A DNA stretch of 58,286 bases, from the NCBI GenBank assembly GCA_039679385.1, contig JBDKVB010000100.1, forward strand, positions 1 to 58,286, written 5' to 3'. The stretch is from Armatimonadia bacterium (GTDB lineage Bacteria; Armatimonadota; Zipacnadia; Zipacnadales; JABUFB01). The notes under the pieces were generated by a model that saw nothing but the letters and a program-made list of their open reading frames with translations, made no database searches and was not told the DNA's origin. This document shows positions 31,280 to 34,826 of the stretch, piece after piece (position 1 is the first letter of the stretch; each line of letters begins with the position of its first letter). The translations under genes were made by a program, and so were the position numbers.

Positions 31280-31996
31280 CTAGAACATCTTGAAGATGCG
31301 CCACTGGAGCTTGTAAGGCATGCTGGGCACCGCTGGATAGCCCGACCAGGTCGGCCCCAGGAGAGCGCCATTCACCACGAAGGGATCGGCGAAGCCCTCG
31401 CCGCCGTTCTGGGTGCTTTCCTTCGTCCACTGGTTGAGGGCGCTCCAGTTGTAGGTGACGGTATTGTTCCCGGTCGGCCCGTAGTAGATGGTCGTCTGGT
31501 CATTGCGGACATAGGCCGGCAGGGCCGTACCGTTCGGGGCGATCAGGGGACTGCTCTCCCCGGAGATGGCGACCGTATTCCACTGGTACATGGCCCCAGT
31601 CATGGGCGGAGTGCTCTTGGTGACTGTCCCGGTGCCCAGTGAGTGCTCGACGTTGTCCGGGGTGATGACGCTGACTTCCCAGCTCACGCTCTGAAGGCCG
31701 CCGGCAAGGGTGATCTTGGCGGTGCCGTCTTTGTAGGTCTCGTTGGAGCCCCTGACGGGTGTTCCTGTCCCACTGGAGTTCGGCGCCGACCACTTCCAGC
31801 CGTCAAACTTATAGTGGGGATCGGAAACGCGCACGCGGGACAGGGAGATGGAGCCAATCAGGAAGTTGGGCTGATTCGAGGGGGCAAAGGTGCCCACAGA
31901 GATGGTCTGGACGGCGGAGTAGTTTGTGCCCGTCCCCAGGGACACCATCACCGCCAAAATCTGCGTCACCAGAACTGACATGGTCTGGATCATCAT
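31280..31996 (-). CDS. Signal-anchored secreted protein of unknown function
   Basis: 238 residues from the ATG at 31996, which has GAGGTG upstream; the frame continues 80 codons further without a better start. The N terminus MMIQTMSVLVTQILAVMVSLG is an uncleaved anchor or pilin-like hydrophobic helix. The rest is a Thr/Ser/Gly-rich beta-type domain (TISVGTFAPSNQPNFLIGSI ... DGTAKITLAGGLQSVSWEVSV ... NTVTYNWSALNQW). It has no Cys in the exported part and no recognised family. The start layout and beta-rich tail suggest a surface or pseudopilin-like protein, but the pilin prepilin-peptidase motif is absent. Confidence 0.68.
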   Translation of the reverse strand: MMIQTMSVLVTQILAVMVSLGTGTNYSAVQTISVGTFAPSNQPNFLIGSISLSRVRVSDPHYKFDGWKWSAPNSSGTGTPVRGSNETYKDGTAKITLAGGLQSVSWEVSVITPDNVEHSLGTGTVTKSTPPMTGAMYQWNTVAISGESSPLIAPNGTALPAYVRNDQTTIYYGPTGNNTVTYNWSALNQWTKESTQNGGEGFADPFVVNGALLGPTWSGYPAVPSMPYKLQWRIFKMF

Positions 31997-32195
31997 CGTG
32001 AGCACCTCGGGCAGCAATGCTGTGGACAACGTAATGCACAGCCGACACACCCACTGCACGTGGGCTGCAGAGACATTATACCTGAATCGGGGGTTGCGAA
32101 ACCACTCCTGCCGTAACGAGATAGCTGGATTGCTGTCACAGGGGCTCCTGAACGGCTTCGCTGCCTCGCGGGGTGACGTGTTCTGACGGAAGTGC

Positions 32196-32223
32196 TTGAC
32201 AGAGGTCTCGAAGTGATTAGAAT
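32196..32223 (+). promoter_or_regulatory. Putative sigma70 promoter for the helicase gene
   Basis: TTGACA (32196-32201), a 16-base spacer, then TAGAAT (32218-32223), 35 bases before the ATG at 32259. A GGGGGGATC ribosome binding site follows. Confidence 0.7.
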
Positions 32224-32258
32224 ATCTGTTCGACAAACAACTAAACGGGGGGATCCGA

Positions 32259-34826
32259 ATGAGAATGGCTTCTTTGGAGGCCTACGGGGCACATCCGGAT
32301 CTCCTGGCGGTTTGGACGCAGCACTACAACGAAGACCTCTTACCGATCCAGGAGAAGGCAGTACTCGATGGGCAAGTACTCACGGGCAAAAGCGTGGTGG
32401 GCAGTGGTCCGACGGGCTGCGGCAAGACGCTCATCGCGGAGATGGCGGCGACTCATGCCGCCAGTCAGGGCAGGCGGGCGTTCTACCTGTGTCCGACGCG
32501 TGCACTGGCGGAGGCAGTGCACCGGCAGTTCAGTCGGCTCTACGCACCCCTGGGGATGCGGGTGCTGATCTCGACGCAGGAGCGGCGGCAGTCCGACCGG
32601 CAGATCCTGCGGGGCGAGTTCGACATCGCCGTCACGGTTCCGGAGAAGCTCTGGGCGATGCTGATGGCCTCTTCCTCGCTACTGCAGACGGTGGGGGCGC
32701 TGGTGGTTGATGAGCTGCAGATGCTTGGCGACGAGGATCGTGGACCGTGTCTGGAGCTGCTGCTGGCGCGCTTCGCAGCAGTCGGCCGTGCCCAGATCGT
32801 GGGGCTGTCGGCAGTGCTGGGCAATCCGAGGGAGCTGGCAGACTGGCTCGGGGCGCGTCTCGTTGAGGAGAACCGCCGTCCGGTGCCGATGCGCAAGGGG
32901 GTATGGCGCGATGGCGCCTTCAGCTACCTGGAGCATAACTCGCAGTCCCGCGGCGAAGAGCCGATTGAGGTGCAATTGCCGGAGGACGCCTCGGAGCTCG
33001 AGGCTACTGTCCGCCTTGCAGCCGAGCTAGCGCTCCGCGATGAGCCGACACTGGTGTTCCTGCGCGACAGGGCGAGCACCGTCCGAGCAGCCCGCATGGC
33101 TGCTGAGCAGATGGAGAGAGCAGAGGCGCCAGACCTCGATCGACCCACCGGGCAGTCGCTGGAGGCGGCCAGGGACCTTCCGCCGACCCAGGCAGCACGG
33201 GCCCTGACGGAGCTCATGGCCAGCGGCGTCGGCTTCCACAATGCGGACCTGCATCTGTCCGAGCGGCACCTGGTTGAGGCGGCCTTCGCCTCGGGCGACT
33301 TGCGCTGCCTGTTCGCGACCAGCACGCTGGCCGTCGGCTTGAACCTCCCCGCCCGGAACGTGATCGTTGAACCCCTGAAGTGGCGCAGCCTCCCCGGTGG
33401 TCAGCCCTCACTCGGGCCCCTGACACAGGCGGAGTTTGAGAACATGGCAGGACGCGCCGGGCGGCTGGGCTTCGGCGACGAGTATGGCCGTGCGCTCCTG
33501 GTGGGCGAAGCCGGGTTCACCGAAGACGGGCTGTTTCGCCGCTACGTTGAGGCGCCGCCGGAACCGGTCAGCGGTCAGTTCCAGCGCCTGCCGGCGGTGC
33601 AGCGCCTACTCCTGCGCACGGCGGCTGAGGGGCTCGACGGCGAGCCGCTCCACCTGCTCACTCCCACTCCTTCGGCGGCTGGTGACACGGCCGAGGAAGC
33701 CCAGGCCCTTGAGCGTGCTGAGAAGGCCGGGTTGATCCTGCGCTCGCCCTTCGGCGACCGCGTTGCGCTCACCGGCGCCGGTCAGTTGGCGGCCACCTGT
33801 GGTCTGTCGCTCGCGACCGTGGCCTCCATGACCGCCGCGCTGGAGAGCCTCCACGATGCTCCCAGCGACCTCGAGGCGGTGGTCATGGCTGCGCTGTCGG
33901 CGGAGGCCCGTGCGATACCTCTCCCCCGCGATCGCAGCGAGGGGCACTGGATGCGGCTGCTCGAGGCTCGGGGGCACTCGGACTGTGGCTGGTCCGAACG
34001 AACCCGCGCGCTGCTGTGGAGTGGGCCGTTGAGGGCGGCCGAACGCGAGACGGCGGCTCGCATCACACTTACCGCCCTGGATTGGTCGCGCGAGGAGACC
34101 ACGGCCGATCTCGAGCTGCGCACCGGCCTGCACTCCGGGCGAGCGGCGATTGTCGGCGAGACTATCGGCTGGCTGGTGCAGTGCCTGGCGCGAATGGTTG
34201 AGGAACGGGGTGGCGACCCCGACGACGTGGACCGACTGCAGGAACTCGGCGAGTCGCTGACGGCAACACTGCCGCCGGTCTGTCTTCCGCTGCACAGGCT
34301 CCATATCCCGTCGCTGCAGCGGGACCACGTGCTGGGCCTTGCCGGGGCGGGGATTACCACCCGAGACGATCTTGCAGCCGCGACACCCGGTGCCCTGGAG
34401 GCGTTGCTTCCGCCGGCGACACTGGCTGAACTGGCCCAGATACTACCGCTGCGGGTCGAGGTCGCGGCGCCCAGTGCGGAGGAGGTCACGCAAGAGGCCG
34501 CGGTGGATGCGCCACTTCTGGTGATCGACGCGGGGCGACCGAACGAGGTGTCCTTCCGGGGGCAAGTCGTAGCCCTACGCCCGATGGAGTTCGAGCTGCT
34601 CTCCCTGCTTGCGCACCAACCGCAACGCTGCGTGCCCTTCGACAAGCTGTATAACGAGCTATGGGGCGCGAACAACCCGGTCGAGCCCGCGCAGATCTAC
34701 TATCATCGGCACAATCTGGCGCGCAAGCTCATGAGCGCGATGCCTGAGGGGTCCGAGCCCATCGTGAAGACCATCAGCCGGCGGGGGCTGATGCTGGATC
34801 TCCCGGCCGAGGCAGTGGCCGCCTAA
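32259..34826 (+). CDS. Ski2/Hel308-like superfamily 2 helicase fused to an OmpR/PhoB-type winged helix
   Basis: 855 residues. The helicase core has the Q motif (LLPIQ, Gln31), Walker A GPTGCGKT (50-57), Ia CPTRALA, motif II DELQ (151-154, instead of DEAH/DECH), motif III GLSAVLGNP, then FHNADLHLSERHLVEAAF, ATSTLAVGLNLPARNV and motif VI ENMAGRAGRLG. These are in the form typical of Ski2/Hel308 proteins. A helix-hairpin-helix-like stretch (HVLGLAGAGITTRDDLAAAT) near residue 690 is also as in Hel308. From about residue 753 comes a separate domain with LRPMEFELLSLLAHQP ... FDKLYNELWG ... IYYHRHNLARKL ... ISRRGLML. This matches the Trans_reg_C DNA-binding winged helix of response regulators, without a receiver domain. 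It probably unwinds or remodels nucleic acid, with the extra domain guiding DNA binding. Confidence 0.85.
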   Translation: MRMASLEAYGAHPDLLAVWTQHYNEDLLPIQEKAVLDGQVLTGKSVVGSGPTGCGKTLIAEMAATHAASQGRRAFYLCPTRALAEAVHRQFSRLYAPLGMRVLISTQERRQSDRQILRGEFDIAVTVPEKLWAMLMASSSLLQTVGALVVDELQMLGDEDRGPCLELLLARFAAVGRAQIVGLSAVLGNPRELADWLGARLVEENRRPVPMRKGVWRDGAFSYLEHNSQSRGEEPIEVQLPEDASELEATVRLAAELALRDEPTLVFLRDRASTVRAARMAAEQMERAEAPDLDRPTGQSLEAARDLPPTQAARALTELMASGVGFHNADLHLSERHLVEAAFASGDLRCLFATSTLAVGLNLPARNVIVEPLKWRSLPGGQPSLGPLTQAEFENMAGRAGRLGFGDEYGRALLVGEAGFTEDGLFRRYVEAPPEPVSGQFQRLPAVQRLLLRTAAEGLDGEPLHLLTPTPSAAGDTAEEAQALERAEKAGLILRSPFGDRVALTGAGQLAATCGLSLATVASMTAALESLHDAPSDLEAVVMAALSAEARAIPLPRDRSEGHWMRLLEARGHSDCGWSERTRALLWSGPLRAAERETAARITLTALDWSREETTADLELRTGLHSGRAAIVGETIGWLVQCLARMVEERGGDPDDVDRLQELGESLTATLPPVCLPLHRLHIPSLQRDHVLGLAGAGITTRDDLAAATPGALEALLPPATLAELAQILPLRVEVAAPSAEEVTQEAAVDAPLLVIDAGRPNEVSFRGQVVALRPMEFELLSLLAHQPQRCVPFDKLYNELWGANNPVEPAQIYYHRHNLARKLMSAMPEGSEPIVKTISRRGLMLDLPAEAVAA

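Follow-up and report, generated by a model that had tools for sequence, protein, structure and literature searches.

A Hel308-like helicase fused to an OmpR-type winged helix is a probable DNA-damage-induced repair protein of Zipacnadia and other bacterial phyla

What would a helicase do with the DNA-binding domain of a response regulator? The question is raised by one gene of the window (the whole stretch of DNA analysed, 58,286 nucleotides from a 5.6 Mb genome of the class Zipacnadia, Armatimonadota), an ORF on the + strand (32259 to 34826) that starts with ATG and encodes 855 amino acids (aa). An earlier note on this DNA had read the ORF as a Ski2/Hel308-like helicase with an HhH-like segment and a terminal OmpR-type winged helix, and had suggested that it might act in repair or in phage defence. 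The features assigned to the gene and its promoter are as follows.

32196 to 32223, + strand: sigma-70-type promoter, -35 TTGACA (32196-32201), 16 nt spacer, -10 TAGAAT (32218-32223); from a promoter scan, with a layout shared by relatives.
32220 to 32231, + strand: predicted LexA-type operator GAAT-ATCT-GTTC, overlapping the -10; from a matrix built on lexA promoters of the class.
32259 to 34826, + strand: coding sequence, Hel308-like helicase with a C-terminal winged helix; from the ORF, Pfam, relatives and an AlphaFold2 model.
32259 to 32873, + strand: RecA-like domain 1, aa 1-205, Walker A GPTGCGKT, motif II DELQ; from Pfam DEAD and a structure match to Hjm, with boundaries from model and alignment.
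32874 to 33563, + strand: RecA-like domain 2, aa 206-435, motif IVa FHNADL in place of FHHAGL; from Helicase_C and a motif survey.
33564 to 33893, + strand: internal winged-helix region (equivalent of Hel308 domain 3), aa 436-545; from the structure match over 1-731, boundaries approximate.
33894 to 34298, + strand: ratchet-type helical domain (equivalent of Hel308 domain 4), aa 546-680, with a near-invariant Trp 638; from structure and alignment, and Pfam Helicase_dom4_arc in relatives.
34299 to 34454, + strand: HhH-like domain (equivalent of Hel308 domain 5), aa 681-732; the structure match extends to residue 731.
34455 to 34514, + strand: disordered, poorly conserved linker, aa 733-752; pLDDT below 50 at 735-749, 17% mean pairwise identity.
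34515 to 34805, + strand: OmpR/PhoB-type winged helix-turn-helix, aa 753-849, recognition helix 810-826, wing 836-846; from Pfam Trans_reg_C, PDB matches, the model and 47% mean pairwise identity.

The Pfam models DEAD (residues 29-188, 101 bits) and Helicase_C (323-404, 32 bits) matched above their gathering cut-offs, and motif II reads VVDELQ. The AlphaFold2 model, computed from a 56-sequence alignment, had a mean pLDDT of 91.8, with residues 735-749 of the linker below 50. It was superimposed on the archaeal helicase Hjm (2zj8/2zj5) over 661 residues spanning about 1-731 (VIA Z 32.3, 26% identity), and contains over this length the five domains of the Hel308 fold in their order, RecA1-RecA2-WH-ratchet-HhH. 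The proposed core, including its HhH-like segment, is thus borne out; the absence of a receiver domain was also confirmed, as Pfam found none and residues 1-732 are helicase. By sequence, the closest solved structures were Hjm/Hel308 and ASCC3. The best NCBIfam models were Hel308 equivalogs, all scoring far under their cut-offs (PRK02362, 280 vs 887 bits; PRK00254, 209 vs 1216; helicase_Hel308, 186 vs 1200). Two motifs differ from those of archaeal Hel308: motif II is DELQ in this family and DE[IL]H in archaea, and the Hel308 motif IVa F/YHHAGL is not matched by the window helicase, which has FHNADL where archaeal Hel308 has FHHAGL. In a motif survey the second His of motif IVa was N, S or T in most of the helicase family and HH in archaea. 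In archaeal Hel308, motif IVa reportedly modulates unwinding and annealing (PMC10484726).

The terminal domain was recognized by Trans_reg_C at residues 768-843 (36.9 bits, gathering cut-off 26.2). Used alone, the tail gave sequence matches in the PDB to BaeR, MtrA, CpxR, PhoB and ArlR, and its profile matched the DNA-binding domains of ArlR, MtrA and PhoB at 1e-8 to 1e-9. In the AlphaFold2 model this domain mostly has a pLDDT above 90, with strands and helices in the order found in OmpR. Domain search and structure prediction therefore agree with the OmpR-type assignment made in the earlier note. Two trivial explanations of the fusion were discarded: an assembly or frameshift artefact, because the full-length fusion occurs in a single unbroken frame in many independent genomes, and a recently acquired foreign domain, because GC and GC3 of the tail are similar to those of the rest of the gene.

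Mean pairwise identity within the class was 55% for RecA1, 47% for RecA2, 29% for the internal winged helix, 33% for the ratchet, 31% for the HhH domain, 17% for the linker and 47% for the terminal winged helix; the latter is as conserved as RecA2, and hence is under constraint as judged from these alignments. Residues Gln812, His/Gln816, Arg/Lys817, Leu820 and Lys/Arg823 of the recognition helix, and Thr838, Lys/Arg841, Arg/His842 and Gly843 of the wing, were kept across relatives. DNA-contact positions of PhoB-type domains are partly lost, the position of the wing Arg being occupied by Pro or Ser (840). Since not all PhoB contacts are kept, the tail might bind a protein rather than DNA. It would then be a module docking on RNA polymerase or on a repair protein, and would direct the helicase to transcription-coupled or partner-directed repair. 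OmpR-family transactivation loops contact RNA polymerase, and conservation of the entire terminal domain, beyond its recognition helix, would also suit docking. However, the recognition helix and wing have kept their basic residues from one phylum to another, which is what contact with DNA would predict, and no partner gene is linked to the helicase gene. We consider docking unlikely, and binding of DNA by the tail is our working assumption for the reading that we favour, in which the tail holds duplex DNA.

A helicase match was found in 38 of the 61 genomes searched first. In an alignment of 22 members the tail was present throughout; one sequence (L026) is cut off within the tail at a contig end, and two (L025, L029) have diverged tails. 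HMM scans of relatives recovered the same fusion in Hydrogenedentota, Sumerlaeota, Atribacterota, Coatesbacteria and one deltaproteobacterial metagenome-assembled genome (MAG). The fusion is not a singleton; it is a widespread family in several phyla, conserved through Zipacnadia. The fusion had been unfamiliar to the author of the earlier note. In the open-licence literature searched, no paper was found on a tailed Hel308 of this kind from bacteria or on a LexA-regulated Hel308, so that no described role came to light, but the architecture itself turned out to be common to many genomes. The helicase gene is usually present as one chromosomal copy. It is absent from several genomes of the order, which means either that cells can do without the helicase or that the assemblies have gaps.

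Other relatives differ at the C terminus. Those of Binatota (about 760 aa) end after the HhH domain. In those of Planctomycetota, Zixibacteria, UBP4 and Myxococcota, which are 900-950 aa long, the tail scores under the Pfam threshold; this diverged tail aligned with the window-type tail (hhalign, E 6e-7, 92% probability) and gave a confident fold prediction with an OmpR-like order of elements. Foldseek ranked the DNA-binding domains of BaeR, GlnR and ArlR on top in the PDB for this tail, with weak E-values (best 0.03). In a tree of helicase cores the supported groups were the window class (with Sumerlaeota) and Hydrogenedentota; deep forks were weakly settled and the label 'fused' changed several times. 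A single origin of the fusion followed by losses is possible on this tree. The helicase on one contig labelled Klebsiella pneumoniae (L068) clusters with those of Binatota, and this record is probably misnamed.

The earlier note had credited the gene with its own promoter but had missed the LexA-type operator that overlaps it. The predicted promoter, TTGACA-16-TAGAAT, indeed has 11 of the 12 consensus bases, where 0.2 such sites were expected in shuffled sequences. An ORF on the opposite strand (31280-32236, no Pfam or NCBIfam match) covers the helicase promoter if its first start codon is used. Helicase promoters of the class share a common arrangement, TTGACA, a palindrome GAAC-N4-GTTC and a -10. 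This palindrome matches the LexA site of Bacillus subtilis, CGAAC(n)4GTTCG (PMC4551915). We therefore trained a LexA matrix solely on lexA promoters fetched from the same class genomes, most of which, that of the window genome included, carry CGAAC-N4-GTTTG or a close variant, and then ran it on the helicase promoters. A LexA-type box (CGAAC-N4-GTTYG) was found in 28 of 29 class helicase promoters (p < 0.05 vs shuffles; for 26 the p value was the lowest that the test allows). Scores of at least 15 were obtained for 27 of the 357 regions upstream of ORFs in these loci, and all 27 were at the helicase promoter.

In the window, the predicted operator scored 15.1 bits (1/301 in shuffles); its longer form is GAATATCTGTTCGACAA (32220-32236). 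The left half-site in the window's own family is GAAT, not GAAC, which places the box of this family among the weakest of the set. The pattern RAAYNNNNGTTCGAYA occurred three times in the whole window genome, once before the helicase gene and once before lexA, and was not found in the reversed control; no recognizable repair gene lay behind the pattern matches L161 and L163 of this genome. LexA-type boxes were also present before dinB in two other genomes. No LexA-type box was found in the recA promoters of the class (loci L182-L211), so recA seems to lie outside the LexA regulon in this class, which suggests a small SOS regulon that does not include recA. Genome G026 has a LexA-type palindrome in front of a DarT toxin-like ORF (L216, 952-1500; 121.8 bits, under the cut-off).

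In other phyla the Zipacnadia box gave weak or no matches. In Hydrogenedentota, the box was CTGA-N8-TCAG or a close variant in 13 of 15 lexA hits and in all 13 helicase promoters. It resembles the LexA box of Escherichia coli, CTGT-N8-ACAG (PMC8565304). The operator thus differs between the two phyla and LexA-type control of the helicase appears to be retained, which is strong evidence that this predicted SOS gene is a real one. As the boxes are shared with each phylum's own lexA, the helicase gene is very probably repressed by LexA and SOS-induced. The suggestion that the protein acts in repair is strongly favoured by these boxes in the class and in Hydrogenedentota.

The same comparison bears on a second reading of the tail, as a sequence-specific reader that would bring the helicase to chromosomal sites (origin, repeats) or repress its own promoter. 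In its favour, OmpR/PhoB domains usually read direct repeats, and the class shows good conservation of the recognition helix. However, there is a single such domain per chain, and on inspection the promoters showed no further conserved repeat. Moreover, LexA accounts for the conserved promoter element: from one phylum to the other this element follows the lexA box, with no corresponding change in the tail. We regard sequence-specific reading as quite unlikely.

We thus favour, as somewhat better than an even chance, a damage-induced 3'-5' helicase of forks and recombination intermediates with a tethered duplex-binding tail. Hel308 translocates 3' to 5' with a ratchet helix and prefers forks, and the activity, polarity and substrate of the window protein are presumed to be similar. 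LexA bound to the operator that overlaps the promoter would keep the helicase gene off, and DNA damage would turn it on through RecA-triggered cleavage of LexA. The helicase would load on single-stranded DNA at stalled forks or recombination intermediates, as do Hel308 and HELQ, then move 3' to 5' by means of its two RecA domains and ratchet helix and unwind the strand. The OmpR-type winged helix, flexibly tethered behind domain 5, would act as a second, duplex-binding hand; by anchoring on a neighbouring duplex arm it may improve loading, processivity or the choice of branched substrates.

A damage-induced RNA helicase of the Ski2/Mtr4 kind, processing RNA or R-loops, would share the SOS control, and the AlphaFold2 model does have a fold in common with Mtr4 and Brr2 (Z 24-26). 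However, the nearest structures are those of DNA helicases, Hjm/Hel308 and the helicase domain of DNA polymerase theta (VIA Z 30), the nearest sequence models are those of Hel308, and the tail is a double-stranded DNA-binding fold; there is little probability, about as little as for the sequence-specific reader, that RNA is the substrate. An anti-phage helicase like HamB, BrxHI or caspase-helicases is very improbable: related cores exist in the HamB and BrxH models and in caspase-helicase fusions, but the window gene is chromosomal, conserved through the class, under SOS-type control and free of defence neighbours, none of the 50,697 phage and 72,556 plasmid records searched matched over 80% of the protein, and PADLOC matches (HamB and BrxH models) were confined to the helicase core, with neither the whole-length match nor the defence neighbours of the HamB/BrxHI type. 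The phage defence suggestion is accordingly not supported, and the statement that defence genes are absent from the neighbourhood extends to relatives, as no operon or defence partner was conserved across 19 loci.

Close to the helicase gene, and in variable orientation to it, one family of the order keeps a block (L117 8519-12321; also L113, L116 and L118-L121) that encodes an enolase-superfamily protein, a MerR/HTH_17 protein, a Trans_reg_C regulator and a TPR protein. The caspase-helicases, proteins of about 1000 aa from many phyla (L083, L091, L095, L103, L231), have a related core but carry an N-terminal Peptidase_C14 domain and no match to the terminal winged helix; relatives of their core were found on plasmids, and they are a candidate defence family.

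Compared with known systems, the damage-induced fork helicase that we propose shares with archaeal Hel308/Hjm and metazoan HELQ the order of domains 1-5, the fold, the ratchet Trp and a presumed role at forks and in recombination. It differs from them by being bacterial, by its extra terminal OmpR-type winged helix and by its LexA-type control. The helicase domain of DNA polymerase theta has the same fold, but the window helicase lacks a polymerase and has the extra winged helix. With OmpR/PhoB response regulators it shares the terminal DNA-binding domain; however, it has no receiver, is joined to a helicase, and has an altered recognition helix and wing. In RecQ, the RQC winged helix lies beside a 3'-5' SF2 helicase core, a similar association, but the SF2 group and the winged-helix family are different. 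RecQ was found over the family cut-off in 9 of 46 class genomes, and not in the window genome. Of 35 genomes that have the helicase, 6 had RecQ over the cut-off, as did 3 of 11 genomes that lack it, a difference too weak to claim that the helicase replaces RecQ.

In conclusion, the window protein is probably a well-conserved, DNA-damage-induced repair helicase, as far as sequence comparison can tell. Hel308/HELQ is regarded chiefly as a repair helicase of archaea and animals. We suggest only tentatively, as a possibility that we would not bet on, that in several bacterial phyla a helicase of this type is a core SOS effector in a RecQ-like role, directed by an OmpR-type tail to targets (a sequence, a duplex arm or RNA polymerase) unlike those of any Hel308, HELQ or RecQ. 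The fusion family occurs in several uncultivated bacterial phyla, and predicted SOS-type control extends to at least two. The shared box is a candidate LexA operator for Zipacnadia and for Hydrogenedentota, and the window helicase would be a tractable bacterial protein with which to learn what a Hel308 motor gains from a second winged helix. A response-regulator DNA-binding domain fixed as a sixth domain, together with LexA control apparently maintained through a change of operator, speaks for an SOS repair activity not described so far.
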